A program made the translations under genes and the position numbers. Under the pieces are notes generated by a model. That model was not told the DNA's origin, made no database searches, and worked only from the letters and a program-made list of their open reading frames with translations. Below are positions 10,888 through 58,354 of a stretch of 64,000 bases of DNA, in pieces (positions within the stretch are counted from its first letter, which is position 1; each line of letters begins with the position of its first letter). Source of the stretch: Utricularia gibba (taxonomy: Eukaryota; Streptophyta; Magnoliopsida; Lamiales; Lentibulariaceae). The stretch lies in assembly GCA_002189035.1 (NCBI GenBank), contig NEEC01000018.1, forward strand, positions 372,001 through 436,000, read 5' to 3'.

Positions 10888-11418
10888 CTACGGTTGATAT
10901 AACCTATTCCCACACCTGCACTTCCAAGCCAGAAGATAGTAGCTGTCATTGTCGTGCTCGTCGCCATCCTTATCTCCGTTCAGCAGCGAAAGAGAAGGAG
11001 AAGAAGAAGAAGAAGATGATGATGATGATGATGCCGATGAAGATGATGGACGAGGATCTGCGTTCATGTTTGTGAGGCGGTGTGGTGGAATTACGAGAGT
11101 CGCCTCGCAAGGTCTGCATCTCATGCATTTGTCCAGGCACGCAGGGGGCCTTGACCCCAACACTATCTTCCTCATTTCTGGCCTTTTCGCTTGCCCTTGG
11201 TTTCCTGAAACGGCCACCCCAAAACATTTACTTAGTGCGGTCCATGCTGAGGTCATTGGAAGCAAACAACTAAAGCTTTAGAGCAGGGATTGCTTGTAGA
11301 TTACCTGAACCCAGGCAGAGGATAAGAAGGATGGAAAGAAAGAAGGCTTTGAGACGCACAAGAGCCCCCCGGTGCTGCAGTTAGCAGGAGAAGCGAATGC
11401 TTTTATTTTCAACGACAT
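10888..11418 (-). CDS. EPIDERMAL PATTERNING FACTOR-like (EPFL) secreted cysteine-rich peptide
   Basis: EPFL peptides are secreted ligands of ERECTA-family receptor kinases and TMM that steer stomatal and growth patterning. Two exons are proposed, 11418-11305 and 11204-10888, with a GT-AG intron. Exon 2 encodes GSRPPACLDKC, MRCRPC, ATLVIPPH and, at the carboxy end, YYLLAWKCRCGNRLYQP. Its six cysteines fit the family scaffold. Exon 1 encodes a basic amino terminus and a hydrophobic stretch (FFLSILLILCLGS) suitable as a signal peptide. It stays in frame from the ATG only if one extra G is present in the run at 11365-11370. With it the total is 432 bases, 143 residues. The loop between Cys4 and Cys5 carries about 20 serines plus an Asp-rich stretch encoded by a microsatellite. 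The exon 2 call is firm; the start is inferred. Alternative: an extra exon ends before an acceptor-like site at 11375. Confidence 0.85.
10996..11052. repeat. GAA/GAT trinucleotide microsatellite inside the EPFL coding sequence
   Basis: On the plus strand runs of GAA pass into runs of GAT. On the coding (minus) strand these read as repeated TCA and TCT/TCC serine codons. The length is in frame, so repeat changes would lengthen or shorten the peptide loop without breaking it. Confidence 0.9.
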
Positions 11419-12129
11419 GCTTCAGGACGCAGCTTTCCGGGAGAGAGTGGCGGAGATGAAATGAAACAGAAAGCTTTGGAGTTCGACACCTCTTAAAAAG
11501 AGTAGTTTACTATCACCATTATTAGTATGTCAATTAAATGATTGTCTGACACTGGCAAACAAACGCCGTATGACTCCTCACTAGTCACTGCAGAAAACAA
11601 TGTAGTGTAGTGCAGTGTACTGCTATGACTTCTGTCTTGAAGGAAAGTGGCTGGTTTCTTTTCTTGGGAATCTTTCATCTCTTTCAGCTGGCTCGCCATT
11701 CTCAATCTCAAACTGTTTTCCATCGTTCACCTAACTGCTGGGGGTTACTGACAACCATTTTTCGTTTCTTCAGAAACGATCTGCGACTTCCCAAGTCTGA
11801 ACCTCGTCCCCTTCCCATGCCATTAGACTAAGAAGAGTCAAGTTGGATAGACTCAATTCTAAATATGTAGATTCAAGTTGGGATTTTAGTAGCTTTTGCA
11901 GCTACTAGATGAATTGCGTTCAAAGCTCAAGGATCACCAAAGAGCGTTTTCGCTTTCTTTTTTTGTTTTTGGTAGCATAAACCAGAAATATTCCAAGAGC
12001 TGTGTTTTTAAAGAATGCAATTAGAAAATAAGTATAATATGAAGAAGAATTAGTTCTGATAGCTAACAGTAAGTAAAGCGAGTTGGATCCAGAGAACAAA
12101 ATTGAGCCTGAGTGCCATTTTGTTCTCTT
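11419..12129. other. Spacer between EPFL and RBP47-like genes
   Basis: Both neighbours are on the minus strand, so this region should hold the EPFL promoter and leader (left part) and the RBP47-like 3' UTR (right part). No coding exon, repeat family or RNA gene was recognised. The short open frames here lack domain similarity. Confidence 0.5.
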
Positions 12130-14277
12130 TCAGCTGACTTGTTGCTGGTGGGTACCATACACGGCGGGGTAAGCTCCGTAGGCTGCAGCAGCGTACATGG
12201 TGGGGTCCTGAGGAAGCACGTGATAACCATATGGCTCGAAAAACGGCGCTGCGTAGTATGGTGGCGTCCATGGATTACCGTACTCGCCTCTCCCCTGCAT
12301 CGTCAAGTGATGTTAAGTGTGGTTATAATATAAAAATGGCCACAGAAATCACGATTCATGAGGAAGCAGAGTAACAGGCATCAGTCAGGGCCTTTGCCTG
12401 TTTGTTTGCTGGGTTTCTTCCCCAAGAAAGGCGGACTGACTGCTTTCCAATCATTGTGCCGTTCAAGTTTTGCAACGCCTCCTCAGCATCATTCCTATCA
12501 TCAAGCAGCTGGGGTGATCCTGCTCACACTTATCATGTCAAGTTGTCAAGGGATGTTTACCTGTTAGCAAAATGAACAAATCCACAGCCTTTCCCGATTG
12601 GTACTTTGACTGATAAGATCTCTCCGTATTGCAAAAAGGGTTGCTGCAGCTCTTCTTCGGTAACATCTGCGTCCAGTCCTCCCACAAAAATCTAAGAAAA
12701 TCAGAGCTGAGTGAATAGTTTTCAAACAACAAGTGGAATAGAAGAACGAGAACGAGTGACCAACTGTTGTGTTGTTGGTATCCCCTTCATTCTGAGATGA
12801 TCCTCCATTTGAATAACCACCTATTAACATGACAGACGCATTGGAAATCAAATGAATATACCAGCCTAAAAACCATTTACTTTTGCTTTTCATCGCAATC
12901 AAACAGCAAATTAAGACAACATAGAAAATAAATGGGAGATTACCATGTGAAGAATATTGTTGCTGGTAACCAGAAAATTTTCTAGGTGTTGCTGGGGATA
13001 CGCATAGGGCGACCTGAGCAATAAACACCATTCATTTCGGACATTGCCTGCGTCTTTTCAGCATCATCTCCAAATCTCACAAAACCATATCCTTTAGAAC
13101 GTCCAGAGGTTGGATCAATGACAACCTTTGCCGCTTTCACAGAAGGATATTTACTAGAAAACTTTTCATGAAGCAAAGCATCAGTAACATCTGCGGCTAA
13201 ATCTCCTACAAATATAGAAAGATCGGAACCATTATTTGTTCGCTTATCCCACGTGCTAAACACAGCCCAATTTAGTCGAAAGTGCTGCTCAGTGTTAGGC
13301 ATTAAACTTGAAGAATAAGTTTGTAAAACTTTTTCAGCTGCAGCATGCGTGGAAAACTCAACAAAACCATATCCTTCTGAAAACCCTGTTTGTTTATTGC
13401 GTATAACCTTTATAGAGGAAACCTGCACAGGTGCATAAAAGTGTCAACAATAGCAAAAATACATCCAACATACTAGACAACTAGTTGCAAAAAAGGCTCA
13501 TCATAACACTTCAAAATCAAGAACTGCAAATGCCTTTAAGAAAAAAAAAGAGCATGATAACGTGGCATGCTTAATTGTGAATGGTTGAAAAACGCCACAT
13601 TTTCACCTGTTTCGACAAAAAAAAAGGACAGCTTTATGGAACATATCAGATGCGTTTGTAGGTTTAAAGTGCCTTATTCTCCAAAATTGAACTACATGAC
13701 AACACCAATGGAAAAGGTAGTTACGGTTATTTCATCGCGCAGAGATAGAATGAAGTTCAATAATTATCAAAGGACACATCTTTTTTATCTCAGCGACGAT
13801 CAAGAAGAAGGCTTGGCGCAATCCCCATCACAAACAACAAGTTTCAGACAAAGCAAGAAATTTTATCGTGTAAAGGAACCAGCTTTAACCGGTGAAATAT
13901 CAAAATATATACCTCCCCGGTTGAAGCAAAGCAGCTTCGGAGATAATCTTCGTCCATCCAATTATGGAGGTCACCAACCCAGATCGTGTGATTCTCACCG
14001 TTGGCCCCCCCACCATTGCTCCCTCCTCCTTGGTGCTGCGACGGAGGCGGCAGCGGCGCCTGCGGCGGGTGGCGGTAAAGGTGATGGTGGTGATAAGGAA
14101 CATAATACGGCGCCGGCATCATCCTATGTTGCATCATCATTGCCGCCGCCGGGTACCGCATCGCCATCCATTGCTGCGCAGTCACAGGGACCATCAGCTG
14201 CGGGGCGCCACTGCAGCACCGCTGCTACTCTCCTGACCACCCTCCACAACCGGGTCCTGTGCCTCACCGTCCTGCAT
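12130..14277 (-). CDS. RBP47: RBP47/RBP45-type RNA-binding protein with three RRMs
   Basis: Nuclear/stress-granule poly(U)- and poly(A)-binding proteins of this plant family have a Gln/Pro-rich amino end and three RRMs. Proposed exons: 14277-13913, 13422-12944, 12820-12765, 12691-12561, 12494-12398, 12294-12130. RRM1 spans exons 1-2 (TIWVGDLH, EGYGFVEF), RRM2 is in exon 2 (LSIFVGDLA, KGYGFVRF) and RRM3 in exons 4-5 (IFVGGLDA, GKGCGFVHFA). The amino end (QQWMAMRYPAAAMMMQH) is RBP47-like rather than RBP45-like. Two frame breaks occur, at G4 runs 14202-14205 and 12994-12997. Adding one and two bases restores the conserved reading and gives about 431 residues. The last intron would need a GC donor (12397/12396); if retained, a stop follows at 12356-12358. 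A downstream start (Met at 14194) is a less likely alternative. Confidence 0.9.
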
Positions 14278-14433
14278 CCCCAATGGAATATCACGAGTAT
14301 CCCAAAAAATACGCTTCACCTTCAAAACTAGTAATGCTAATTTCGAAGGATAAAGAAAGAAAACTTGAAGAAGACAGAAGAGGAAGGAAGACTGCAGCAC
14401 ACTGGCGTTGATTGATTGAAGATCCCAGGGAAG

Positions 14434-14480
14434 TATTTATACTACCACAATTTAAGTGGGCGTGAATTGATGGGCCGATA
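14434..14480 (-). promoter_or_regulatory. Core promoter of the RBP47-like gene (TATA box and TGGGCC element)
   Basis: On the minus strand TATAAATA lies at 14441-14434, about 160 bases before the start codon at 14277. Upstream are TGGGCC at 14471-14476 (plus strand) and nearby TGGGCT/AGCCCA motifs near 14483-14500. These resemble TCP-bound site II elements common in plant housekeeping genes. The assignment is by position and motif only. Confidence 0.6.
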
Positions 14481-14509
14481 ACTGGGCTGAGAAGCCCAAA
14501 TGCATCAAT

Positions 14510-15330
14510 CGGCCGAAGTCACATATGGGAATATAATCTGATCTTCAAACGACTACCCTAATAAACAATTCCATAACCCAAGGTTTTTTTGTTATTATTT
14601 CCCTAATTAAATCACCCACGTGGAACTCAGAAATCTAAAGACATGTGAGTCGTCGTCAATATATTATGACTTTTTTTCTATCGCATATTAAGATAAAAAA
14701 TGTATACATATGATGTTTATTTTTTACATACAATATTAGTAGGATTGTTACTTTTTAAATTAATCTCATCCCTCAAATAATATCCCGTTTATACGATCCA
14801 CGAGATATTTTTAGAGTAAAATAAGCAAAGTTAGATATTTTCAATGAAAGTAAAACAAATTTTGAATATTGAATTGACGGAAAGTTATTGAAAATAGGTA
14901 GGGTCAGGTTCTACATTATTTTTTTTTTAAATTAGTAAATTGTGATGGAATAAAGTCCAAGACTAAATTGTAGATAGGTTTTGAATTCACTTGATGTTTA
15001 TTATTTCAGTCTCAACCTGGTAGCCCTCATTGTGCCCCAAGAGAATGGAACTCAAATGGTTCAAATTGTGGGGAATGACAAGTCCGATGAGTATCAAGGC
15101 ATAAGTGCGATAAGCAAAACTGTTGTTTTATGAATCAAGACATGCTTGATAAACTTAGATAACTGAAGGCATATATTTAGTAAATATCTGTAATCTTCAA
15201 AATATGGTAATATACATAATATCATTAGTATATCATATTATATCTAACAATAAACCATTATACTTTCATATACTTTGATATAAAAATTGAAATTGGCGGG
15301 AAACATTTCATCCCAAACCAATTTTATACA
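14510..15330. other. AT-rich intergenic DNA upstream of RBP47-like gene
   Basis: No gene or recognisable transposon domain was found. The nearer part may include distal promoter of the RBP47-like gene. Confidence 0.4.
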
Positions 15331-15338
15331 ATATAACC

Positions 15339-16473
15339 TAGAGGCGGGTTCGGTTCGAACCGAAACCGCGGTTCCGGTTTCGGTTCAGTTCCAGGAGGTG
15401 GATGTCCGTACGGTTTCGATTCGATTCGGCAATTTGGAACCATGGAACCGATGGTTCCGACCCGTGTATGAACCGTACTGTTCACGGTTTCGAACCGAAA
15501 TCGTCGGTTCGGAACCGAAAAAAATTAAAAAAAAATTAAAAAATTAAAAAATTAAAATAAATAAATAAATAAATAAATGTATATGATTACGGACACCCAC
15601 ACGATGGAAGTGGGTACCTGGAAAATCTTCTGAAACATTCTTTCCCAGACACTCTGGCAATAGATGTGGGTGCTTGGAAAATGATCTAAGAAACACTCTT
15701 TCCCAGACACCCACATCCTTAAGATACATGAAATATGTGATGTTAATTTTGAAAATGCAATGTATTTAATCCTTATAATATTTTGTTTCCAAAATATATG
15801 AAATAGAAGTTGTTTTATTTTAATTTGAAAAATACACAATACTTATAAAAGATTATATAAAACAACTATATAAACATCTTCATTTTAAAAAAATAAATAT
15901 ATAAATAATAATTCTATTCATTTTATATGATTTGTAATCTTGTTGTATTTGTTTTAAAAAATTTAATTTTATCAAATATATATTCAAATACTAATAATTT
16001 AATTATTTATTTCATTTATTTAAGTCACAAATTATATTGATTTTAATTATATTTTATTGAAATAGTCTATCAAGTAATTTAAGTTATAGTTTTTTATAAA
16101 TTAATATAATATATTACATAATATATCTAATTAAATACAAAAATTAATATTATTAAACATATTATTTGATAATATTTAAATATAAAAAAATAATAATTAT
16201 TACAAATTTCACTACCAAACACCCACAATGATTCATATAGGTGCCTGAAAAACATCTATAAACAGTAACCGATCGGTTCCGGTTACGGTTCAGTTCCCGA
16301 ATATCGGTTCCGGTTCCGAACCGAAACCGTCCATACGGTTTCGGTTTCGGTTCGGTTCAAGGTTTCGTCTGTACGGTTCCGAACCGAAACCGGAACCGTT
16401 GTCTACAGTGAACCGCGGTTTTGAAACCGACGGTTCGTTGGAACCGTTCGGTTCCGAAACGAACCCACCTCTA
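15339..16473. mobile_element. hAT-type non-autonomous element (MITE) with iterated GGTTCGGTTCC ends
   Basis: The element starts TAGAGGCGGGTTCG and ends CGAACCCACCTCTA, an imperfect terminal inverted repeat with hAT-like tips. It is flanked by ATATAACC (15331-15338) and GTATAACC (16474-16481), an 8-bp target duplication with one mismatch. About 170 bases at each end are packed with CGGTTTCGGTTC / GAACCGAAACCG units in both orientations. The 0.7 kb core is AT-rich, with a duplicated block (ACACTCTTTCCCAGACACCC type) at about 15590-15725 and a third diverged copy near 16215. No transposase frame is present, so it would need a hAT transposase in trans. The subterminal units are plausible transposase binding sites (inference). 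Confidence 0.88.
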
Positions 16474-16481
16474 GTATAACC

Positions 16482-16950
16482 GTCTTGAGAACACAAGAAA
16501 GTTGGCTGAATTTACAAACTGTGTCATAAAAATTAGATTTACAAAATAGTTGATCTTGATTTCCAATTGGCAAAGTAACTAATTTTTACAAAAATATTTG
16601 CAATATAACTAATATTCTAAATAAATGAATCTTTTATAAATATTATTTATAATCTTTAAATGAATTAAAATTTTAAAAATAAATTTGAAAAAAATTCGAA
16701 ATTTAACATAAAATTAAGATTATTCGAAAAATACATAAATAAATATTAATTAAATCATTAATTAATTTACAATACTTATTTTAAAATACTTCCAAATTTA
16801 GGTTTATTATTAGCTTATCTTTTTAATTTTATTAAAATCACATTAAAATGTTTTTTTCAAATATAATTTTTTTAAAAAATATAACTATACTTGATCTCAA
16901 TCACATATTCACTATTTCTTACATAAAACATCAAATGTCATATATATAAT
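16482..16950. other. AT-rich spacer
   Basis: Very AT-rich sequence between the hAT MITE and the family 2 LTR copy. Nothing recognisable is visible in it. Confidence 0.4.
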
Positions 16951-16951
16951 A

Positions 16952-18065
16952 CTGCACAAAACTATGAAATTAATGAATAAAAATCATTTCCACAATAAAT
17001 TATTATTGAAATTTTCTTTAACTCGATACTCAAAAATGATCGAAAACAAAACAAAAGATCAAATTTTAAAAACTATATAAAAAATGATTTTGGATTTGGA
17101 ATCTACTTTTCTAAAATTTGCGTATATATGTGTGGGTAAAACTTGCGCAAGTTATGAGATTGTTATTCTAAAATAGTAATATTTGCTAACCGTTATAGTA
17201 TCGTCCTTGATTAGTGGAATTATAAAATTAATCATGCCATCATAGTCACTTCACTTATTGTGATAACTTTTATTTTTCATACACTTAAATTTAACTCTCA
17301 TATCTCATGTCTCACAGATAGATTAGATAAAATGTGTGTTATCAATAATATTCGATTGAGGCCTTCTTCTTAGATACTTGAGGATAATCCATGATTCTTC
17401 TGCATTCCCTTAGGATTATGTGATATTAAAAAGCATGTTGATAAAAAAATAGAATTAAAACTCAAATTAAATATAAAAAAATACAATAAAATAGTCATAT
17501 GTGCATGACTTGCACAAGCGAGTCTTTAACGCAAATCTTTAACCGCAAATGCCTATACACACATGTTTAACTCTAACATATAAAAATTAATGAAAAATAA
17601 CATGAAATAAAAAAATTCAAAAAATGTCAGACTCAACCATTTACTCCTAGATTGACTTAAAGACTATGATCTAACCAATAGTTTGATGTGGCGATTTGAT
17701 GGGTTTTTTAATGGGAGTGTATCAATTCTTCTATTTGAATGTTCTAATATAATGTAATTTTTCTAGAATAATATTAAAAAAATTTAAAATAAAATATAAA
17801 TCTTATTTTATTTTAGAATCTTTCACTAAGTTTTCCATCGAAAAGACAAAATCTTTGACTGTATCAAATCCAATTCAATTTATTCTAATTTATGTTGAAA
17901 TTATCTTGAAAAATTATAATACATACATTCCCTTCAAAAAGATTATATACAAGATATAAATTTCAACTAAAAACATATAGAAAGTAAAATAAAAGAAATG
18001 CAAAATTGATCTAACAGAATTATAAAAAACATAAATATAAGTAACACAACATTAATTATTAACTT
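16952..18065 (-). repeat. LTR family 2, copy A (diverged)
   Basis: It aligns block by block with 46344-47474 and 56114-57244. Shared landmarks, in the same order, are GTGTGGGTAAAACTTG, the GTTATTCTAAAATAGTA block, ATCATGCCATCATAG, TCTCACAGATAGATTAGATA and a closing AAGTAACACAACATTA. It is the most decayed of the three and its ends cannot be set to the base. Orientation is taken from copy B. Confidence 0.72.
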
Positions 18066-18069
18066 CAAT

Positions 18070-20070
18070 ATATACTTACTTTTAAATAAATCTTAAAAAT
18101 TATATTCTAAACTTATGAATTTTAATTAGACATTTAACATAGTTATCATTTGTTAAAAACACCATAATTTGGTATTTATATTGAATTTTTATTAAATATA
18201 AACAATTATTATAAAAATGAATTTAATTAAATTTTATAAATTATCCTAGAAACTAATGACATATATTATAAAGTTTATAATTATTCGGCAATTGAAATAA
18301 CCCTGTATTAGTTCTTTAATTCCTTTTTGCAAAAATAAGAATAAAAGATAATATATTAATAGGATCATAAATTATTCTTCACAAAACATGGGTGATGCAA
18401 ATACCATAATCCACGCATATAGTGAAATCACACTAATGGGAAAATTAACCACCAGTAATAGATGGATAATAAATGGTAGAAGAAGAAAACGCAAATCAAC
18501 TTCAATCAATTCTAAGCAAGAGTATTTGAACAACCAAGAGTATCAAGTGTATAAAAATATGATCGAATATCATTTGAGCCATCAATAATATTAAACCCAA
18601 ACAAATAATCCATAAAAATAATTGAATAAATAATATTAAATAAAAATAACATTAGTACATCAAATAATAAATAATTCAAAATAATATTTAAGAGTAACAA
18701 ACCTAAATATTAGCTACTCACAAACAAAACATATGATTTCAAAATAAAAGTATTGGGATATAAAATAAATAATTATTAAGTGTATTATAAATTAAATGCA
18801 TATAAAATGTAACCCATATAATCCTAAAAACTTAATGATAAATTAAAAAATAGAATGACATAATAATTTGAATATTAAATATTCACAAACAAACAAAATA
18901 ACAAATAAAAGTATTCATGAGTATAATAAGTATTATTAACTATCATATTAAAAAAATTAAATACATTTAAAACATAAAATTATATCTCTAAAGAATATAA
19001 TTATAAATTTAAAAAAACTTCAAATTATATTACGTTATGGATGAAATATTTATGTGCTGTTAATCTTATGATATATAAGGATATATATACAAAAAATTGA
19101 TATAATTTATGAATAAATTGAAAAAATGTTGAAAAATTTTCAAGTTAAAAATATATTATATGGAATCTAAATAATTTAGTCGAGTGTGATCCAAAATTAT
19201 CAATTAATGTAATTGAAAAAATGCCATAAAATGCAATATGAAGATAATTACATGAAACAAACATTTAGTACAAACACATGACATGATTTGACAAGATATA
19301 TACATTCTATTAAAAAAACAAATACACGCAGAGTCGCTCATTTATTAATAAATATGGTTTTTTTCTAAATGATAAACTTTATTTAAAAGGAATTTATTAT
19401 CAATGATTTTTCATGAAATAGAATATAATTTAGTATTCATATTGTTATTTAAACCTGATTTGATAAAATTAGATTTAATATAATGTGTAAGTGCAAATAC
19501 ATTTTTAGTATATCAAGTTTCGTTTGCAATTAGAAAGAGCTATTAGTCCTATATTATTCTTTTCAGGTATATATTTCACGAATTACACATTCAGATTGTA
19601 AACCTTAATACAAATCCTAAATCCTAAGACTCGAACTATAATACTGATTGAGTTTTTATTATAATATAATAATATAATACATATTATAATATCACAGGTT
19701 AATAATGAATTTGTTGTTTTAATATAAGATTAAGTTAAAATAATACCTTATTTAATGTTAACTCTCAATTTTTGTATTTTGTAATTTTTTTAATAATTCT
19801 CATTTCTAATATATTTTATTAATTATCTATCACATGATTTATTTTTCAATTTAAAAAAAAAATTGATATTACACTCGATGAATATAATAGCATAACATCG
19901 AGTGCAATTTAGTATTTCATTTTGCAAATATTAATTCAAAATTATAAAAAAAAGGAAATGTCGCATATCGGTTTACTTAGTTTGTTGAACGAAAAAGCTG
20001 AGTTTGAGTTGTTTCCTTCTCTTTCACACTCCCTTCACACTCCCGCATTCCGGTCGAGATCTTCAAACCG
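18070..20070. other. Strongly AT-rich intergenic DNA
   Basis: No supported gene. The open frame at 18388-18588 is short, AT-rich and without similarity I can name. The inverted phrases ACACTCGATG and CATCGAGTGC near 19870-19910 form a short imperfect palindrome. Confidence 0.4.
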
Positions 20071-20072
20071 GC

Positions 20073-20083
20073 TAGCTCCCATA

Positions 20084-20117
<34 letters not shown>

Positions 20118-20278
20118 AATTCACCGCCGTATGGCTGACCGGTGATTACTAGCGATTCCGGTTTCATGCAGGCGAGTTGCAGCCTGCAATCCGAACTGAG
20201 GACGAGTTTTTGGGGTTAGCTCACCCTCACGAGATCGCGACCCTTTGTCCCGGCCATTGTAGCACGTGTGTCGCCCAG
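20073..20278 (-). pseudogene. rrn16 (fragment): Nuclear plastid DNA fragment: 3' part of chloroplast 16S rRNA
   Basis: The plus strand reads AGCTCCCATAGTGTGACGGG, GGCGGTGTGTACAAGGCCCG and on to TGTAGCACGTGTGTCGCCC. This is the reverse complement of the conserved region around helices h41-h43 of bacterial-type 16S rRNA, in the plastid version. About 205 bases are kept, then similarity stops abruptly on both sides. Differences from the plastid sequence as I recall it are all transitions equal to C-to-T on one strand (for example CGGCGATTAC reads CGGTGATTAC, and CTCGCGGGATC reads CTCACGAGATC). That is the expected decay of a methylated nuclear insertion. It is not a functional rRNA. Confidence 0.92.
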
Positions 20279-20282
20279 TGTT

Positions 20283-20590
20283 CCTAGTGCCCTGAGTATG
20301 AATCTCATGTTGAAATTTATTGAGAGCGATAGTCGTAGTGGTTTTTTTTAATGCGTGAATAGAATGCTGTGTCGGATATTTGATCCCGTATTCTATCAGG
20401 AGGGCTTTTCTATTTCCTACATCAACCTACCATTCTTCTTAGCCCTTCATTATGCACACTTGGAAGTCTTTATCACCGACACGTATCTGGAAGATCTATT
20501 ACACTTGATGATATTAAAAAAATCAATAGATTGCTTTTGTCAAATATATGATATAATACACCAAAATATTAAAGTTATATTGCAATGATT
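20283..20590 (+). other. Unidentified segment next to the plastid fragment, with a 77-codon frame
   Basis: Directly after the 16S fragment composition stays more balanced than the surroundings to about 20510. A frame at 20355-20588 encodes DPVFYQEGFSISYINLPFF and LEVFITDTYLEDLL. I do not recognise it. It may be more organellar DNA inserted in the same event, or an unrelated scrap. Confidence 0.3.
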
Positions 20591-20639
20591 ATATAGAATT
20601 TATATTATAAGATACAAATATATTTGTAATAAAAAAATG

Positions 20640-21840
20640 ATATCTAAGTGTTACCTGATGGTTGACTCATAGAAAAGTCGATTAAACCATACGAATGATT
20701 AGTGGAAGAAAAAACTATATTCTACATTCGATGGACCGTTGATATTGTAGTTGGGTGCAAGTATCGGTTAGAAAAAAGAACATATATTTACAATATTCGA
20801 TGGTTTTCACAAAATATCCTATAGTGCAACAATCGATTACAAGCAAAAAAAACATATCTATACTACACTTGATGGTTTACGTAGAATCCTAGTGAAAGAA
20901 GTAGTTGTTAATTCAAAATGGTATTTACTATTACTGCTCTCAAATGTAAATTACAAATACTATCGAGTGTGTCAACAAATTAAAAATTTCAAAATATTCA
21001 CATTTCACTCTATAAATGGAGTGCACATTTAATATTATTATGTATATAATTGTGACAACACTTATTAAGATAGTGATAAAATTATTTTGTGGCAGAAGTA
21101 TTCTTCGGGATTCATTAGGTTATATTTCATATAATATGTATCCTATTTGAATTTTCAAATTACATTTGAAAAGTAAATTAAATATATAGACGATTAGCTT
21201 GGTATAAATGCATATAATATTTGAATTATTGTAAAATTTTATGATAAATTATTAAAAGAAATAAATGTGTATACATTTCTGATTTTAATACTTTAAGATA
21301 CATATTAAATCTAAACATTAATTTACAGGATAGATATATATTTGGAACATGATATATCGCTTGCTTTTTTGTCTCTTTAAATTAAATGTATTGTTTTCAT
21401 TTTATAATTTTTTGAAAAACATTAATATGTTATATTAATATATGTGAAAATTTGAAAATGAATGTGGATGTTATTGAGCCATATTCATGTAGGATAGAAT
21501 ATTTTAAACTATCGAGTGTTCATTTTGATTGGTTTGATCAAAATTATGAATATGGATATATATTTGATTGGACATAACGAACTGAGGAAAATAACATACG
21601 AAGAATGTTAGTACATGAACAATACTCAAATAAACTAATTTTCATAATATATTAATTTAATTTGTAAATTTTGATCAAGTGTAATTAGCAATTTGTTACA
21701 ATACATGAACAATAATAATTTTCTTTTTTTAAAAAATATTCGATTCCTACAAGACCTATGACATATCATGAAATTGAATTAATTGATTTGATAGATAACT
21801 ACCACTATAGATAACTATGTAAAAGATGTTAATTTTGAAA
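20640..21840. other. AT-rich DNA with scattered TCGATGG / CTCGATG motifs
   Basis: Short near-repeats (TTCGATGG, TTGATGG, ATCGAGTGT) recur about every 80-150 bases between 20650 and 21520. They resemble subterminal motifs of a DNA transposon, possibly of the Mutator-like relic that follows. No frame of note. Confidence 0.35.
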
Positions 21841-21849
21841 TTTCAGGTA

Positions 21850-23150
21850 CAATATATGTAGATTTAGAAGAAAGTGAATCAATAGATGAACCAATACCTT
21901 AATTACAGATCACCTAAAAATTGATACATTTGATTATTTTTTGGAGACCTTCGGTATTAATATGTTACCCGATGATATTATTCCTAATATGGTTGGAACA
22001 AGAGTGGAAGTTAATATTGAACATATTATTTCTCCTTCAACAAATAATAATCAATTTCTTTAGGTAGATCCTATTGATATTATAGTCAAGTTGAATTCTT
22101 ATAATATTCAAGAAATAGAGTGACGAAAGACGATATACTTTCAAAAGAGACAAAGTTTGATTGATGTTGTCACACTCTACCACTTATTAGTGGCCAATAG
22201 AATGTTCAATGTTAATCACAAAATAATATATAATATTATATATAATGTAGGCAATGGAAATTCTTAGAATATTTATTTCGTTTGTATACAAATATACAAA
22301 AGTGTGCTAAAACCTAAAAGATCTCTGCTTTTAAAAATTACACTTGCAATGTTACACATGTGTTTGATAAGCTATGCTTCTATCAATTTTATTGCATCAA
22401 AATTGAAAGTTCAAGCAAATTAAAAGCGCATATAGTACATCTGATATGAGTCAATTTTTTAAAGAAAAGTGAGATTATGTTTTGTTCATGTTTTGGCATG
22501 CATGGACATGTCTTATATGCACTTATGAGTGGCAATATGGTTCATGAGAGTTTTTAACACGAGAATTTTCTCATTATTTGATGGAAATGCGACGTATAAA
22601 TCCTGATACTATAATTAGATGGTAGCATAATTGAGGTTCAAATATAGAACCATTGTAATGAGACATGTTTGATCATTCGGATTTACGATTTATACTTTCC
22701 AGTATTGTCATCATGTATTATGCATTAATGCAACCCATCTTTTATGATCGGCATGGATATAGGTTATTTTTTTATGTCGCTATTGATGCAAATAATTGTA
22801 TTTGTCCCATTTGCGTATGTCTTTGCTTCAGAAAAATCTGATCATAATTGGGCTTGGTTTCTTGAACAATTCAAGGAGAATGTCGTTCGCACATCATAAT
22901 ATTTGATGGTGTGTTTTCCATATTCAAAAGAATATGATATGTCATATAGGCTCAAGATCATCAGGTATATTTGAATTAGTTAGAAAAAAATCTATGCTAT
23001 AATGGAAAACAACTACAATTGAGCGATAGAGCAAATTCAAAATAGATATAAAAAGATATATAATATCTTCTCGGTATCAATAATAAAATATGGATGCTAT
23101 TTTATGATCAAAGAAGAGTGAAATATGTACATTCATTCACTAAAAATCAC
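21850..23150 (+). mobile_element. Mutator-like (MULE) transposase relic 1
   Basis: Fragments in several plus-strand frames match plant MULE transposases. An acidic amino-terminal piece begins near 21860 (VDLEESESIDEP). Near 22740-22880 lies a catalytic-domain segment, FYDRHGYRLFFYVAIDANN, followed by FAYVFASEKSDHNWAWFLEQF in a shifted frame; the consensus is a DANN...P.AFA...SE...W.WFL pattern. Multiple stops and shifts make it dead. Edges are approximate and no terminal inverted repeats were identified. Confidence 0.75.
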
Positions 23151-23154
23151 AAGC

Positions 23155-25065: not shown

Positions 25066-25071
25066 CATGTT

Positions 25072-29494: not shown

Positions 29495-32100
29495 CTATCG
29501 ATTGACTATTCAAAGGGCGACGTTGGAGGCTTCATCTGATGCGCATTCCTGCAAAGAACATCTATTCGACGCAGCCATAAGTGAGAACTGCGAAGAGGCT
29601 TCTTTCAAAACAAAAATGGCGGCCAAGATCCAACTAAAACCTTATAAAGGAATTTTATTGATCGAATGCCAAGTGCTAGCCTTTCTGCTTAAACAAGCAA
29701 CAGATTCTCATCTGCGTTTCTGAACCAGCAAAAGGTGCGGTATGCCTTGTCAAAGCTTTGCACGTCTACTGGGGTGATATCTTCGCTGCTCACGAAACGA
29801 CCTCAATAGCACAATCCTCATTAACCAAAACAAAGCAAATCAGCCTCGAATTCGGAAGCATTTGAGAAAATCAAAGACGTGGATCTCGAAATCTGTATGT
29901 AAACGTTTTGCGCGGTGTGTTGATGAAAAAATGATACGTTTTCATATTTGAATATTAAAAATAAATAAAATAATAGATAATTATAAAAATATAAAACTAT
30001 TTTTTGTGTGTGACAATATGAATACAAAGTGGCTAAATTTCACATTTATATTCATTATTTCCGATGTGAATGTTGAATATGGATGTAAAATGGGTCAACA
30101 TTGAGATAATATGAAATATAAATTTTTCCGAATCATATATTGTACAAATGAAGACTTCCTATCTGTCGTACGTAATGTTTAATTGTACGTATCATTTATT
30201 CTATGATGTTTTTGATGCATTGCATCTGTATATCGCACGAGGATATACTTCAATAACACCTATGTTTATTCTCTGAATCTCAAATGAGTATTGATTATGA
30301 CTCTTCTAGACATGAGATAACTTTTGATTATTATTACCTTTAATCATATTTAACAAATATTTACTAATCAAATTATATTTGAATACTGATCAAAATATAT
30401 ATATTTGGATGGATAGATTATGTTTATGAGTTTTTTTAACAACGATTTTGATGATCTAAGAAATAGATGTGTGTAGCTGAATAATCAAATTATAGAAATT
30501 ATAGAATTGAAAGAGCAAGTAAATAAAAGAAAATTCAAAGATCACTACAAAGATATGTTAACTTATAAGCTGTGTTCAATATAAATGAATGAAAATTTAT
30601 GGATAATTAATTAAAATTCGTATATAATTATTTATGAATTTAATATTTTGTATAATATATATTTTCGATTCTTTTTATATATTTTCATTTTAAAGTTGAT
30701 TTAAATAATAATAATAATAATAATAATAATATGATTTTATATTAATAAATTTTATGAAATGAAAGTAATTTACAAGGTGCAGTTACTTTACAAATAATTT
30801 ATGAAATTAAATTGTTTATCCAGCACAGTTACTGTACAAAAAACGCCCAAAAATATCTTCCTTCAAGATCATGGATTTAATATACAAATGAAAGTTGCGT
30901 TGGGATGGGCTAAGCTGATCCAACCTTATTCTTAAAAATTTGCACCAAATTTCGGGATAAGATCTATAGAGTCTTGTATGATCCTACTTCACTTATTCAT
31001 TGGATCTTTTTTTAAATATTGTATAAAGTTAAATATTTAAATTATAAATATTGATGATAATCAAATACCTAATAGAAAATTATCATTAATTTTAATTATT
31101 TATGAAAAAAGGATATAATTCATATAAAATGAATTAAAATTATCTGAAAATTAAATATTTCCATTTAAAAAATAATTATAAATAATATTTAATTTTATAT
31201 TCAAAAAATATGAAAAATATGTGGACCAATTTTGTTGATAACCTTGTTGGACTTTTCAACCTCGAGTCGAAGTCCAAAAAGTCCGATGATAATATGGGTC
31301 TAAATTTTAATCTATAGTTTAATTGAACAAGTTGGTATTGTCCAAATCTGAAATGCAAAAATTTGTCGAGAAAATGGCTCATCCAACAAATAAGTAAAAA
31401 ATTAAGTTAGTCTATATAATGAACTTCATTTAGTATATAGTGTACATATAATATATGATTCACCATGCATATTAAATATATCATTTTTAATTAATGTTTA
31501 CTTAATTTTTATAATAATTATATTGATTTATTATATTATATTTTCTTCTCACACACTGTCTAATAATCAATTTTGTTAATGTAAGATTATGGTCGTGATG
31601 AGTTTTGTAATTGATTGGGGGCATATTGTTAGCCACACGTGCGAAGGGTGGTGTTTCACGTCGCCCTGCTTGATGACAAGGAGCACGCAAAGGGAAAGCA
31701 AGAAGCCACAAGCCCAAGTGTAGATATTCTTCAATGCACGCACACTCCCAAATGGCATAAAAAAAGTGAAGTTGTGCGTTTTTTGGAACTTTACCGATTT
31801 GATATCGATGTATTAAACTGTGAGATACGTCAGCGCTGGAACCCCAAATGCCTGTCTGTGGCAACAACAAACTTGCACAGCATTCAATATTCATGAGTCC
31901 TGCTCCATCTACATTAAATTGGGAGGGTCTGTGGCAATCAAAAAGGCTGGTTTATTTATGGTACTGTTAGATCACTTCAAACCGATACATCTTCTAGTTT
32001 AGAACAGAGAGTGCTTAAGCTTGTCAGGCCACAGTTCAACGCATACCAAGAACTCCAATTTTCTAGTAGATTTCAAGGACCAGACTCTTCTATTCAACAT
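29495..32100. other. MUS81 promoter side and AT-rich intergenic DNA; GIF 3' side
   Basis: 29495-29810 is the MUS81 5' leader and proximal promoter. 29900-31560 is very AT-rich with an ATA/AAT microsatellite at about 30704-30731 and no gene. 31570-32110 is more balanced and sits downstream of the minus-strand GIF gene, so part of it is probably that gene's 3' UTR. The minus-strand frame at 31502-31894 is not recognised. Confidence 0.45.
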
Positions 32101-32110
32101 AGTTCTATGA

Positions 32111-33088
32111 TCAGCTGTTTTCCTTCCCGGTCTCTCCACCACTGCGACTGGTGGAGGAGTTTATCAGCCCTTCAGTAGCAGCAACACCCGGTTTATCTCT
32201 AGCGTTACCTTCATGTGTGTCAGTTGGTCCTGGTCTGAGTGGTTGATGCATCTGCAGACCTTGCAATTGGTGTGGGGTACCGAATGGCGCCCTTGGGGTA
32301 TAGCAACTGGCTGCTGAGCCATGGCAGCTGCCTGAGGATGCTGCATGAGATAACCTCCTTGCTGGATTCCAGGATGAGGAGTCAACTGTTTTCACGTATA
32401 TTCTGAGTCAGGATTTAAGCCACAGTCAATTAATTATTCAATGCTGATTGCTAGAGATACCTGCGTCGGTATCACCGATGGTTGTGGCTGTGCATCTGCA
32501 ATAGCAGCCAAATACATCAAGTTCTTCTGAAGTTGAGCCTGATACCTGATCATCCCCGAGTTAAAAAAAGAGCCAATATCATTAGCCACAGAGAAAGTAC
32601 TTGCTTTTTCTCAGAAGAAAAACAACCAAGAGGAGACTTACTGTGCACATTCAGCAAGCTTGCCAAGATTCTGATTATCCAAAATCGCTAATATCAATTT
32701 TTTGTTCTCATCAAGGTACTGCATGATCAATTTTATCACAAGTATGGGTTACCTAGGCAATTTTATTGCTGAATACGGGGTGTGGAGGGAAGAAACCATG
32801 ATCAACAATGGGATTGCTCTTATCGATATTCATTAGCTATTCATAGCAGAAACATAGTAAAGACAGAGACGGCATTCGAAAATCCCTGTACCAAATTCTT
32901 GTGAAGGAGCTACTAACGAAGGGGCACAAAAAGCATCCAGAAACAGGAACAAGCCTGAGTTTTTAAACACAATACAGTCATGGAATAGCAAGAGAAGAAA
33001 GAGCAAACACCTTCTGAATCTGTTCCGTGGTTATGGGAGTAGGCGGAAATGATGGCATGACAGGAAACATTGGCGCCGGCTGCTGCAT
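32111..33088 (-). CDS. GIF: GRF-interacting factor (GIF/SSXT family transcriptional co-activator), GIF2/3 type
   Basis: GIF proteins bind growth-regulating factors through an SNH domain and recruit SWI/SNF remodellers to promote leaf and organ cell proliferation. Exons are 33088-33011, 32718-32642, 32545-32461 and 32385-32111, all with GT-AG introns. The SNH domain runs through exons 1-3 (ITTEQIQKYLDENKKLI, LGKLAECAQYQAQLQKN, LMYLAAIADAQPQP). Exon 4 gives a Gln/Gly/Pro-rich tail. It breaks frame at the G4 run 32295-32298 (plus strand). One more base there joins VAIP to RAPFGTPHQLQ and carries through to GGETGKENS, about 171 residues, as in GIF2/GIF3 tails. Without it the tail ends early at 32164 in an unrelated cysteine-rich sequence. 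The family call is firm; the paralogue is an inference from the PSFPPTPITTEQIQ amino end. Confidence 0.92.
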
Positions 33089-33710
33089 CTTTTCTGTTCA
33101 CCAGTTGGATAGGAATCCCCAGACCTTTGATTTCACGCTTCAAAGAAAAAGGCAGTATCAAATTGCGCGGAAAAGAAGAGAGGGGAGAGAAACCCTACTC
33201 ACACACCACCAGAAACCGGGGAAAACCCCAACACCTACAACGCTTGAATTGACAGTTGACACACGGAGAGAAATCGACAAGGAAATTCAACGTTTTCGGG
33301 AAAAAGATTACAAGCTGCAAATAGGGTATGATTTTCTGTGAGAAAAGGATTACAGGTGTACTGCTGAGGAATCGGGTTCTGGAGACAAACCCGACTTCCA
33401 AAGAAATTAAAAATAATAATATTTTTCATTATTTTTTAACCATTTACCTGACAACAATTCTAAAAAATCAGGGAGAGCGTAATTTTTTGTTAAAAAAAGT
33501 GTACAATTTCCTAACTTCTTATTTATTAAAACATAACCAAAAGATTTTTTCACATCAATTGTGTTAAGAAAAAGATTCATATATAAATACATTTGGATAT
33601 AATATATTAATAAATAGCAATATATACCACATAAACTTAAAAAATTCTTTTATATATTACCCTAATTTTATTTCAAACTCATCTCTTTTGGTTTCTCACC
33701 TCATTATTTT
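33089..33710. other. GIF 5' leader/promoter region
   Basis: Upstream of the minus-strand GIF start codon. Contains purine-rich sequence typical of plant leaders (33170-33200). No other gene is supported; overlapping short frames on both strands show no domain. Confidence 0.45.
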
Positions 33711-33714
33711 AGTT

Positions 33715-33900
33715 TACTCCAATCTTTTTTGGACCTACCACCCTCATTTCCAATCACTTCAATGGTCATAATTATGTGGCATAGTGGAAGTCGATTTATA
33801 TAGCTTTCAAAGGATGCAATCATCTCCACCACATTGATGGATCCATGAAGTCATAATCATGAACTCTAGGGCAAACATTGTAGGTGATGCAGTTTCGAAA
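33715..33900 (+). mobile_element. Copia-type Gag amino-terminal scrap
   Basis: The plus strand reads, with breaks, NHFNGHNYVA, WKSIYIAFKGCNHLHHIDGS. This matches the start of plant copia Gag polyproteins (LNG.NY..W...M...L.G..L..H.DG). Only about 60 codons remain. Confidence 0.6.
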
Positions 33901-34109
33901 AGAATTTTGCTCAAAAAAATAGAATTTACACAACAGTAAGAGAATTTGTATGCTTCAAATTCCATACTTCAATGAAGAACAATATCACAAATTTTCGTAA
34001 ATCAATTCACAATAGGATAAATCAGTCTCATGGAATGAACATCATCATTTCAATATCTTTTCTAGAGTTTTTAGGTATAATAGCAAAACAAGAATGAAAA
34101 GTTCAACTA

Positions 34110-34330
34110 CATATCACATGCTCATAAATATAAATAGGGAAAGCAAAAAACAACTAGGAAGATAATCCCAACAGCAAGTAAACATCAGCACCAAACAAAC
34201 CAACAGCAAGGATTGGCTGAAAACCGCCTTACATTGAATAGAAACACCTTGGGCAGCACAAACAGCAACTTCTCGGCATAACTCCTGCAGTCCACCTTGA
34301 GAAACACACAATAAATTCAAAGAATACTAA
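34110..34330. other. Short unique-looking segment, unassigned
   Basis: Less AT-rich than its surroundings. On the minus strand it reads GGLQELCREVAVCAAQGVS. I could not assign it to a family; a captured host-gene exon or repeat debris are both possible. Confidence 0.25.
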
Positions 34331-34399
34331 CTACAATTCCTATAATTCCTATACACAGTCACGAACAAGGCAACATTACTTTACCTAAATTAGGCGTTG

Positions 34400-35480
34400 G
34401 TTGCTCCCCTCCACAATTGGGTGTTTACCTTAGTCTTGTTGGGCTTCAACTCCCAAGGATAATAAGGGATCATATGTCGGACTCTATATCTTTTATTAAC
34501 AATGAAAAAAATTAAGTTGATCACAATAACAATATACAATACTTTATGTATTGTAGACATTGAAAATGTCTATACAATGAATGAGGGAAGGCAAACGAAT
34601 GTTGTAAACATTAACATTGATACGAGCTAGGACCTCGATAGGTCCAATCTTGTTATTTTCAAGCTTGTGATATTCATGTATTGGATAACGATCCTTAGTG
34701 AGGATCACCAAAACCTGATCCCGCATAGTGAATTTAACATGTCACATCTTTCGATTAGCATCCCTTTTGTCGGCTTTAGAGGCAGCAATGAGCCTCGTCT
34801 TGACCTCTTCATGCCTCTACTTCAAATCATGAACAAAATCTAATGCCTTTTCATTGAATCTAGCAATATTAACAATAGATGTCAAATCAGTAGGACTACT
34901 TGGCTTGAAAGAATAAACTATCTAGAAGGAATTAAACCCACTGCTGCATTTAGTCATATGATTATGCACAAATTCAGCTTGGCTAATCTTCATGTCAAGT
35001 TTCCCAAATATCTGTTCATAGCTTTTGTCTGGCCATTGATTTCCAGGTGATAATCAAAGCTGAATTCACTATGGTACTTATAAATTTCCATAAACATCTC
35101 AAAAAAATGGCCCATGAAGTAAGTGTCTCGATCAGAAACAATAGGCATAAGTAGCTCGTGAAGTATGTAGACTTCTTGGAAAAATAACTGGGCTACTGGT
35201 TGAGCATCATTAGTTTACTTGCATGGAAGGAAATGAGTCATTTTAAAAAAATGATTCACCACCACAAAAATTGAATCAAAGCTCCAAGAAGAGAAGGAAG
35301 TCCAAGCATAAAATCCATGCTAATATTTGCCCATGATTGGTTGTTGAGGTATTGGGGGAGAATGATACAGTCCAACATTAGTGACAGCATCTTTGATGCA
35401 ATGACACATTAGACATCCTCACACAAAGCGAGCAACTTGTTTCTACATATCTAGCAAAAAATAAGACTGACTTATCAAGT
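34400..35480 (-). mobile_element. Ty3/gypsy pol relic (integrase carboxy end)
   Basis: On the minus strand 34544-34726 encodes RDQVLVILTKDRYPIHEYHK, KIGPIEVLARINVNVYNI and LPSLIHCIDIFNV. This is the post-integrase module of gypsy elements (GD.V.V.L.K.R.P....L.....GPF.VL.KI..NAY...LP). Upstream on the same strand (to about 35460) lie degenerate integrase core and zinc-binding sequences (a CLMCHCIKDAV-like piece near 35390). Many stops are present; LTRs were not found. Confidence 0.75.
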
Positions 35481-35754
35481 ACACAATTCAATCGTGACTC
35501 ACGTGGCCTTCATAGGATCTTTTATTAAGGGTAAATTACTTCTTTCACCAAAAGTTGAAGAGATAATTCCAAATTATAACCAACTTTATCTTTTAATATT
35601 CCATCTCATTTCCACATCAGCATTTCTTGTATTTTTTGCACGAAAATTCACTCATCATTTTATGTGTATTTTTTATACGAAAAATCACATAAATAGAATA
35701 TTGTATTTATTTATTTTTATATTATATCATAAGCAATCCGTTCAATGCATTAAT

Positions 35755-35980
35755 ACATATGTGACATTGACATGTTTAGATTTTAATACTAAAATTTTGA
35801 AAAAAGTTTGGTATAACATTAAATTAATTTATCTTTTTTCCAATTCAAAATTAAAAAATGAAGCAATAGTACACATGTGATACTAGCATGTTCAGATTTT
35901 AACATTAAAATTTTGAAAAAGTTTGGTATAATAGTAAATTCATTTATCTTTTTTCCAATTCAAAATTAAAAAACGAAGCA
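35755..35980. repeat. Two-unit tandem duplication (~110 bp units)
   Basis: 35755-35865 and 35872-35980 share CATGTT(T/C)AGATTTTAA, TTTTGAAAAA(A)GTTTGGTATAA and CTTTTTTCCAATTCAAAATT at matching spacing, with scattered differences. It lies just upstream of Mutator-like relic 2 and may be part of its terminal region. Confidence 0.8.
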
Positions 35981-36042
35981 TATTATGAAATATATCTCTC
36001 ATATCATCATTCTTCCTCCTCTTCTTTCTCTCATAATTTCAA

Positions 36043-37160
36043 TGGCTTCCTCTCCAATTGAGATCCGATTGTACTGAGGAGTTAACTTGTTTTATGGAAA
36101 CAATAGTATGTGCTATGACTCACCATCGCAATTTTTTGTTTGGGTTGCTCGGGATACATCCATATCCATGCTACTGTCGTTGATTTATGAAATTATGCAA
36201 TTATCTTCAACTGAGTATTCTATTAGCATTATTGTGAATTATGTTGCTATAGATCCAATAATGGGTTTTCAGAGGTACTGCTATCCTTTTGATCAAATGG
36301 ATGATAGTTTGTCTTTAATTTTTAATCAAAGTCGTATGATTTCAAGTGTTGATAATATATATTAGTACAAATTCAAGTTTCATGAATTTGATCATTCAAA
36401 AATACATTGGTATGTAAATTTTTTTTCTAAATAATATTTATTATTATTAGTTTTAAATTACATTTAGGATATTTTTTTGGATTCACATGATTAAAATATG
36501 CTAATGGTATATTGTATTTTTAATTTTTGAAAGATGCTACTAAATAAGCTGAATATGAAATGATGCAATAAGTTATTTCATCTCCACTTTCTTCAAGTGA
36601 TGAGAATAATGAACAAACAGAAGGTAGATATTATGAAAGTTATATGACAATGAAAATTCCAACAATAATTGAATATGAAAAGATTTTGAACTTCTTTGAT
36701 ATAATATGTGATGATTCATGCAAGAGGGTTTTCTTTAAAGATATAATTTCAATGAAGTAAGCATTGAGTTATTATTGTATCATGAAACTGAAAATGTCTT
36801 TCCATGTTGAGAAGAGCAACAACAAGCAATATGAAATAAATTATATCAACCGAAATGCAACGCCTTCATGTGAATAGCGTGTTAGGATATGGAACAACAG
36901 TGTTACTCAGTTTTGAACTATGACACAATACGAGGGCCTCATATTTGTTTTTCTAACAGTTTCAAAATTGCTAGAAATGATAGTATTACTAGCAAATTTG
37001 TATCTCTTCACATCATGAACAAGGTTAAAGCGAATCCAGGGATACATGTTTCTGATTTCATTGATGATATTGATGAAATTTATCATTTCAAGATATTATA
37101 TAAATTTGAATGGATTGTTGTTAGGTGTGCTATCATGCATATGTATGGTATTTGAGAGGA
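36043..37160 (+). mobile_element. Mutator-like (MULE) relic 2, amino-terminal half
   Basis: A start-like MASSPIEIRLY at 36043 is followed by a stop. The frame then continues (36087-36365) with NSMCYDSPSQFFVWVARD-type sequence of the MULE amino-terminal domain. Further on (about 36640-37160) come KIPTIIEYEKILNFFD, SFHVEKSNNKQYEI and, at 36889-37155, ITSKFVSLHIMNKVKANPG then HVSDFIDDIDEIYHF. This is the stretch before the catalytic domain (SxxVxxxIxxxxxxxPxxxPxxIxxDIxxxYG). Stops and shifts interrupt it, and the catalytic domain is missing. Confidence 0.75.
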
Positions 37161-37164
37161 ATCG

Positions 37165-37985
37165 ATGACAAAACTCCATTCTTATTTGTTATGTATTAAG
37201 GAATTCAACCCAGATAATTCATTTTTATTATTCGATAAATATTGATATTTTTTTACTAATATATTTGTTTTATCACATATACTATATTTGAATATGAAAA
37301 TTTTCGTTCTTATGATAACAAGCCAATGCTACACTATGTATTTTGGACTTTTGGATCATGTGTCTATTTTCACAATAGAGTTCTTCAATTAATTGTAAGC
37401 AAATACTTGATTCCGGTACACATAATCGAACCCCTTTAAATAGAAAGCCATTTATAAAAGCCTAATCACCTTATTGTCCATCCCAATATAAGGCAACAAT
37501 AGGACCATAATACCCATCTTCAACATATAATTCCTTCAATGACTAAAATCTGGTCCGACAACTATTTTACTTAATACCCATTTTTGCAATTTTGACAAAC
37601 AATGAGAACAATCGATGACAAAGTCCCATTTTTTTATTCAAGAGAAGTGATTCTCTAGTCTAACAACTAATTTACCTACTCTTCAATCATTAAAATTGTT
37701 GATTTGTATTTCAAATAATATCCAAAAAATCTGCAGAATGTTAATTTTTTACTGGGGTTGGTTTATTTTAAAAATTAGAATTTGTTATTTATTTGGTTCA
37801 AAATATAGCGTTAAAAATAAATTAGGATAAATATTCAAACATTAGGGCTTTAGGCGACAGGCCTGACGCCACAGCAGTGAGTGTAGGCGTTGTTCACTCT
37901 CAAGTCTCACCGGATTTTTGCTGGTGGATCAGGTTGAGCTATCTGTTTTCTTGATTCCTGAAGCTTAGTTACCCTGGAGCAATCT
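37165..37985. other. Intergenic DNA and 5' leader of the NDUFAF7-like gene
   Basis: No gene seen between the Mutator-like relic and the start codon at 37991. The last 150 bases are less AT-rich and probably hold the promoter and leader. Confidence 0.45.
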
Positions 37986-37990
37986 CAGAA

Positions 37991-40900
37991 ATGGCTGCAC
38001 GCTTTCCCTCGCTGAAACACGTATCTACTTTTATCACGTCTGCAAGAGGTCAGGCCATACGTATACGTTGAACTGCCTTATGGGTTTTATATCTTGTGCT
38101 TTTTAAACTTCTTTTGTCATCATACAGCGACAGCATTTCAGCGAGCTAACTTCTCTTCCGGCCTTGTTGGTGAACATCCAATTCTGGTAATCTTTCCCGT
38201 CTTCTGTATGAAAAATGTGTGGTTTCGAAGATAGACACGAGCATCAAAAGGCTGTGATCAACGGAAGTTTTGATTTTCGTCGTTTTGTGGTTGCAGGTAA
38301 GAGATTTTATTCACAGGGCCCTTTATGATCCAACACATGGTTATTTTTCTCAAAGACCGGGATCTGTCGGAGTGCTTGGTGAAAGCATCAAGTTCAATGG
38401 GTTGGAAGGTTTTCTTTCTTTTTTTTCTGGTTTTTGTGTACCTTTTTGCATTACACATTCTTCTGGATGTAGTTTTGGCTAACATATAATTAACTTTTAT
38501 GTTATTGAATTGCTTAGTTTCTTCTAGTGTTCCTTGATTATTTTTTGATAGAAACAGATGAGCTTATGTTCAGTTTGAAAGCATTCTACAAAAGATTTAA
38601 TCTGATGCTGGCCAGTTACTCGGGTTTTTATTTTCTGTGGTAGCTACACTGTGGCAAGATATGCATATGGTGCTTAATTCGGTAGGACAGGATTGATGAC
38701 AAGCCAATAACAGTGTCAGAAAATCGCCCATGTTTATACAGTTCAAATTCGAATGTGGCCAAGGAAATAATTATGTGTATTGGCTATTTTCAGAAACAGT
38801 TTCCATTTTTTTTTTCTGCTTCTTTTATAAATGGAATTTACATGTGAGGTCACACAGATCGTAGGATCTCTCTGTTTTTTTAGGGAAGTCCTTGTTTTTT
38901 TTTAGGATCGCTTGTCACTTATTCCCATTGTAATTCTTACATGAATTTGGTCCATGCATATTGATGACTCTGAAGATTTCGGGCACATTAGCTCATAGTT
39001 AACTTGTCCAGGAAGACAAGCTTACATGAATCACCTGGATAAGATCTATAAGCAAAATGATGTATCGTGGTTTACACCAGTTGAGCTTTTTAAAGTAAGT
39101 TCGATAGGAGCTTCATATCCATTACTCTCAACTTTATGTCATCTTTCCCGTAAAATAATTTTTCATCACAAAAAAGGCTTCCTGAAGCTCTTGTATCTTT
39201 AATGGATCTTGTCTTCTGTTGGTATTTCGTTATAAACAAGATGTATCCAGAAACCATTTGTAATCCCTATGACTGTGCAGCCCTGGTATGCTCATGGAAT
39301 TGCAGAGGCCATTTTGAGGACTGCAAACCTTTCATTTCCATTAAAAGTGAGTGTGTGTGCATGCTACCTTTCATCATGTTATACCCCATGTTTAGTTTAA
39401 GTTTTTTGCATTAATGACTAAACTAAATTCTCTCTGTTTTTCAGATATACGAGATTGGGGCGGTTCTGGAACTTGTGCAAAAGGTGTAATGGATTACATG
39501 AAGTTGAATGCACCCACAAGAGTTTATGATAATATGACTTATGTGTATGTATATTTCTGATGAACCATCTTTTGGGGTTTTAACTTATGCTCACTTTTAT
39601 ATTAAACATGTGTCAACATCTTTTAAGTTCACGTTTCATTTGTTGCTGAAAGAACAATCAACGGTGTTGTGTGATATACTTTTAACAGAATACTAGACTT
39701 GTAGATTTTTTCAGTTTTTAGATTAGATATTTTTGTCCCCATCTCGAAGTGTCTTACATAATTAGCTGAGTATTACCTTTTCTCAGGCTTAATTTGTTTC
39801 CACAATTTAATGCAGCTTATGATGAATTTTACTGATATTTTTGGGTTTCTATTTTCTGAAGTTATGATTGCATTTTTTCTGCAGTTCAGTGGAAATCAGC
39901 TCTTCACTTGCCAAGAAACAGCTGGAGACTATTGGAAAAGTGGCTAGTCACGCAGCAAGGTTTAGAGTAGAATGTCGTGATGCAGCTGATCCAACTGGCT
40001 GGGGTGCTGGTCTTATCTCTGCACACTTACTTTTTAATCTTTCTTTGTTGTCCTCATTGATCATCAGCATTCCCTGTGTGTGTGTCCCCTTTACTGCGAA
40101 TTATTACGTTACTTCCATGATATGTCATGAACTTAATCAGATATTCTTTAACTAAACAGTTGTTGAAGAACAACCGTGTTGGGTTATAATATTGGAGGTA
40201 TGCCAAAGTTTTTGTAGTTGATTTTACCCTTTTTTGCTTTATGACAAATGATAATCATGTTTAGCTGCCTGAACCAAAAACCCCTGATCCTTTTGTTTAA
40301 TTATGCAGGTTCTTGATAATCTTCCTCACGATCTTTTGTTCTCTGATAATCAAGTTTCGCCTTGGATGGAAGTTTGGGTTGGTAAAAAAGATGATAGGTT
40401 AGCACTACTTTGTCATATGAGCGCTTGCTTATTTAGCTTCTTACCAATTCTCAATTTTTTAATAATCAATCTGCAGTATCAAACGTGCTCTGTCTCCTAT
40501 TCTCGTTTTGAAATATCATCATCTTACTCTATACTGCTGTTGTAATATAAATTGATGGGCTAATTTTGTTTTTCACATAGTCTTTCATGGTGTGAGTTAT
40601 TTTCATGAAATGGTACTGGTAACATGTTTATAGATCTTAGGATTCACCCTATTTACTCTTGATCCAGAATCACGTCTCTGTTGTTTCAAGCGACTGCATA
40701 GAATTGCTCTTTGATATTATATTTTGCTAACTTCTGTTTTTCAATAGTTCAGAGGTGTGTGAGATGTATAAACCTCTCCAAGATACATTAATTACAAGTT
40801 GCATGGAGATCCTTGGTTTGCAAAAGGATGGGCCAACTCCCCAAAGCTTATCGTCTTCAGTTGTCAAGAGTATTTTGGCTAAAGTATTTCCAAGACCTCG

Positions 40901-55327: not shown

Positions 55328-55329
55328 TG

Positions 55330-58350: not shown

Positions 58351-58354
58351 TCTG

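Follow-up and report, generated by a model that had tools for sequence, protein, structure and literature searches.

Frame breaks in four genes of a Utricularia gibba contig point to base losses at G/C-rich sites in the assembly

Results

Gene models and frame breaks in the window

The window, the whole 64,000-nucleotide stretch analysed here, carries four genes with interrupted reading frames and two neighbouring genes used for comparison.

10888..11418, minus strand: EPFL gene with two exons and 431 coding bases as called; Pfam EPF (PF17181), E 2.3e-19
11365..11370, minus strand: break in EPFL exon 1, C6 (coding-strand G6) lacking one base
12130..14277, minus strand: RBP47-like gene with six exons and 1293 coding bases as called
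14202..14205, minus strand: break in RBP47-like exon 1 (site 1), G4, one base short
12994..12997, minus strand: break in RBP47-like exon 2 (site 2), two bases missing, at the end of RRM2 (RPMRI..ATPRK)
32111..33088, minus strand: GIF gene (SSXT domain) with four exons and 515 coding bases as called; Pfam SSXT (PF05030), E 3.1e-23
32295..32298, minus strand: break in GIF exon 4, coding-strand C4 lacking one base
38297..41717, plus strand: NDUFAF7-like gene, 12 modelled exons, 1211 coding bases as called; Pfam Methyltransf_28 (PF02636), E 4.2e-32
39457..39460, plus strand: break in an NDUFAF7-like exon, G4 in GAGATTGGGGCGG lacking one base
51974..53504, minus strand: HSFA5, intact, both exons open
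53657..55330 (ends approximate), plus strand: HPM1, intact, one C5 run called correctly

Also present, at 300-2600 and 58289-59460, are degraded open frames resembling reverse transcriptase/integrase and other mobile-element sequences.

The five G/C runs to which a preliminary description had assigned the frame breaks are all found at the coordinates it gave, and each of the four models is out of frame there. Placing every break inside a G/C run is right for four sites, which are one-base losses, but not for 12994-12997, where the two missing bases probably adjoin a C run. Likewise, one added base brings the coding sums of EPFL, GIF and NDUFAF7-like (counting exons from 38297 onward, earlier exons lying outside the model) to a multiple of three, but the RBP47-like sum of 1293 is already divisible by three as called because its -1 and -2 breaks cancel, and three added bases restore it. 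The restored proteins match Pfam RRM_1 (RBP47-like, three domains, E 4.9e-50), SSXT (GIF), EPF (EPFL) and Methyltransf_28 (NDUFAF7-like). Every modelled intron begins with GT and ends with AG, apart from a single GC-AG intron of the RBP47-like gene (12295-12398, CAG followed by GCAAAG), which precedes the last exon.

The claim that the added bases recover family-conserved sequence is firm for NDUFAF7-like and for RBP47 site 2. Restoring one base in NDUFAF7-like gives the SAM-binding motif EIGGGSGT, joined across the break as EIG-GGSGT, and the aligned structure PDB 4f3n has EFGAGTG; the protein as called reaches a stop 10 codons past the break and has no Pfam match. At RBP47 site 2, the missing bases are best read as GG belonging to a conserved glycine codon (RPMRI-GP-ATPRK, with ATC[GG]CCCAGCA encoding I-G-P-A), and the restored sequence would be ATCGGCCCAGCA. 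In all RBP47 paralogs in the genome, RI and A are separated by two residues, the first of them mostly G, and yeast NAM8 has VGP at the matching position. Lengthening the C run, the repair first proposed, yields the non-conserved I-P-P-ATP and was rejected. The recovery is fair for GIF, whose intact paralog L003 on contig C98 has C5 (ATACCCCCGAGAGC) and a single open frame through to the stop. Substitutions after the GIF break fall 11/9/10 at codon positions 1/2/3, a weakly constrained tail with no frame signal; this pattern was rejected as proof of frame, and the tail as read fits the paralog DNA equally well.

The recovery is weak for EPFL and RBP47 site 1, both in unconserved N-termini, where the case rests on stop codons and splice phase rather than conservation. 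In EPFL exon 1, the frame of the ATG conflicts with that of the signal peptide. Because of an in-frame TAA at 11381-11383 the signal peptide has no start, and the model requires a loss between this codon and the exon end. The lost base would lie somewhere in 11305-11381, with the G6 run as the likeliest place, and the splice phase matches that of the paralogs L035 and L036. At RBP47 site 1, stop codons in both frames place the break within 14197-14224; a conserved N-terminus was rejected as proof, because the paralogs align only from residue 37. The same lack of N-terminal conservation leaves room for these two sites to be alternative starts or exons, with a downstream in-frame ATG in RBP47 and an unseen 5' exon in EPFL. 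This is unlikely, since about 18-24 codons in the ATG frame lead into each gene and one base connects them to the rest, and since the genome-wide error described below makes a single lost base likely.

HSFA5, HPM1 and MUS81 had been listed as free of such breaks, which is borne out for HSFA5 and for HPM1, whose exons join in frame. The intact frame of HSFA5 tells little, because exon 2 contains no G/C run of five or more. Counted over the coding exons of five genes, breaks occur in 5 of 19 G/C runs of four or more versus 0 of 52 A/T runs of that length (Fisher p = 0.0009, the placement of a break within a run being partly a matter of choice). Under-calling is not universal, because true C7 runs are sometimes called correctly, as at 14005-14011 in the RBP47-like gene and in the tubulin gene L050.

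Frame breaks in conserved genes across the genome

As a control, the genome to which the window belongs (100.1 Mb, 516 contigs) was searched with conserved proteins that served as probes only. The set comprised tubulin, actin, eEF1A, eEF2, HSP70/90, histones, ubiquitin, CHLH and PRP8, about 87 kb of coding sequence. A break was scored where neighbouring matches lay in different frames with a gap too small for an intron. Of this, 82.6 kb contained 16 breaks, 15 of them one-base, and the DNA was read at each. Over the about 87 kb, 17 breaks were found, one per 5.1 kb of coding sequence. All 17 are base losses at G/C-rich sites (p = 8e-6 under equal chance of loss and gain), 16 of them of one base; neither insertions nor A/T-run losses were found among them.

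The breaks, written as run length before and after the loss, are C6>5 and C7>6 in beta-tubulin, C7>6 and G5>4 in actin, C6>5 and C7>6 (or GG>G) in polyubiquitin, G4>3 and C4>3 in HSP70, C5>4 in alpha-tubulin, C5>4 in HSP90, C5>4, C4>3 and two further losses of C or G in eEF2, and C3>2 and the loss of CT from CCTCCC in eEF1A. The seventeenth, C4>3, lies in CHLH (Mg-chelatase subunit H) near C304:1367470, where ATC CCC AAT is written ATCCCAAT. CHLH matched at one locus only in the genome search and is apparently single-copy, and the plant bearing this break appears to be green. PRP8 has an intact PROCN domain. Four of the five window sites and most control sites lie in homopolymers, the exceptions being 12994 and the eEF1A CT.

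Four near-identical eEF1A genes, one of them inverted, are clustered at C1:2665964-2677634 and provide an internal yardstick for assembly error. In the exon-2 coding sequence one tandem copy is missing CT and C, three bases in all, and is otherwise identical to its three sisters there. The eEF2 gene at C451:6032474-6035085 carries three separate losses inside a stretch of about 650 bases.

At the genome rate, about 0.9 breaks are predicted in 4.8 kb of the window versus the five observed (p = 0.003, for a comparison chosen after the fact). The excess perhaps reflects local coverage or G/C-rich first exons.

That the frameshifts are real and some of the genes are pseudogenes or truncated variants is what the assembled letters show at face value. 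GIF and RBP47-like would then partly retain their main domains, with the SSXT domain of GIF whole, and Utricularia is generally known for gene loss. The interrupted open frame is indeed shared with true EPFL, RBP47, GIF or NDUFAF7 pseudogenes. However, the identical lesion type, and no other, occurs in tubulin, actin, ubiquitin, eEF2, HSP90 and the single-locus CHLH, and here splice sites are intact and other lesions absent. The additional lesions and relaxed constraint of a pseudogene were not found in NDUFAF7-like or in the broken eEF2 gene, the GIF tail giving no frame signal either way: NDUFAF7-like has a single frame switch across 12 exons with every splice site GT-AG, and the eEF2 gene with three breaks has substitutions of 9/3/70 at codon positions 1/2/3, which indicates strong purifying selection. 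Real frameshifts are thus very improbable.

One locus assembled twice

Part of C451 (C451:6688233-6703460) was assembled a second time, redundantly, as contig C81 (37 kb). Over 11.3 kb the two differ by 2 substitutions versus 18 small indels, 16 of which lie in homopolymers (12 in G/C runs, 4 in long A/T runs). A stretch of 3.67 kb has no substitution and 7 one-base indels, each in a G/C run of 2 to 5; the further 7.6 kb has 2 substitutions and 11 indels (5 in G/C runs, 4 in A/T runs of at least 7, 2 elsewhere). Run lengths disagree in 9 of about 55 G/C runs of four or more versus 4 of 182 A/T runs of four or more (p = 0.0004). Contigs C241 and C304 were considered as a second redundant pair and rejected as diverged copies; retained as a contrast, they differ by 16 substitutions and 2 gaps (p = 1.5e-6 against C451/C81).

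Losses at G/C-rich sites across the genome might also be expected from a real mutational bias of the plant, as in mismatch-repair deficiency. Slippage, however, should also yield insertions and strike A/T runs, frameshifts in essential genes would be purged by selection, and in C451/C81 the run lengths of one locus differ with almost no substitutions, so that such a bias is barely credible. Scarcely any weight falls on the proposal that G/C-run bases are truly lost at a high rate and that the frame is restored in RNA, by transcript slippage or editing, so that protein is made.

Discussion

Three controls, namely the 17 of 17 losses in coding sequence, the CHLH break and the run lengths of C451/C81, agree with the proposal of the preliminary description that G/C under-calling rather than pseudogenization underlies the breaks. 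Judged from the sequence, the five breaks are most probably long-read consensus errors that dropped bases at G/C-rich sites, with the genes intact in the plant (probability about 0.95). The loss would mostly take one base out of a run of three to seven, and the consensus step, not base-calling alone, is presumably at fault. Two refinements to the earlier account are needed. Shortening of G/C runs in one direction holds in that all coding breaks are losses, but 12994 is not a simple shortening. Restriction of the error to G/C holds among coding breaks, but A/T runs of 7 or more are also mis-sized outside conserved coding sequence; the error looks G/C-only in genes, since these seldom contain long A/T runs.

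The artefact is an ordinary sequencing one of a class already well known. For PacBio CLR assemblies polished with Quiver/Arrow, indel errors in homopolymers are described in PMC4853030 and in PMC9985148, the latter citing Watson and Warr 2019. The present case is alike in that homopolymer indels break frames, and the assembly appears to be a PacBio long-read assembly of Utricularia gibba. In contrast to those errors, the sites here are coding and G/C-rich with a true length of mostly 3-7, at about one break per 5 kb, and A/T runs were seen affected only at 7 or more.

U. gibba DCL3 was reported to lack about 600 N-terminal residues (PMC8333044). The DCL3-like gene at C213:2760370-2763414 lacks the helicase part, its matches beginning at residue 629 of the Arabidopsis protein. 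A further artefact is unsupported here, as the missing residues exceed the effect of a one-base error; the published truncated DCL3 is not overturned, because the N-terminal part is absent here too.

EPFL, RBP47-like, GIF and NDUFAF7-like should therefore not be called pseudogenes. With a frame break in roughly every 5 kb of conserved coding sequence, a considerable fraction of the gene models of this assembly carries a false frameshift. Working genes can look dead, and wherever gene loss, truncation or relaxed selection is claimed from this assembly, a check against reads is needed.
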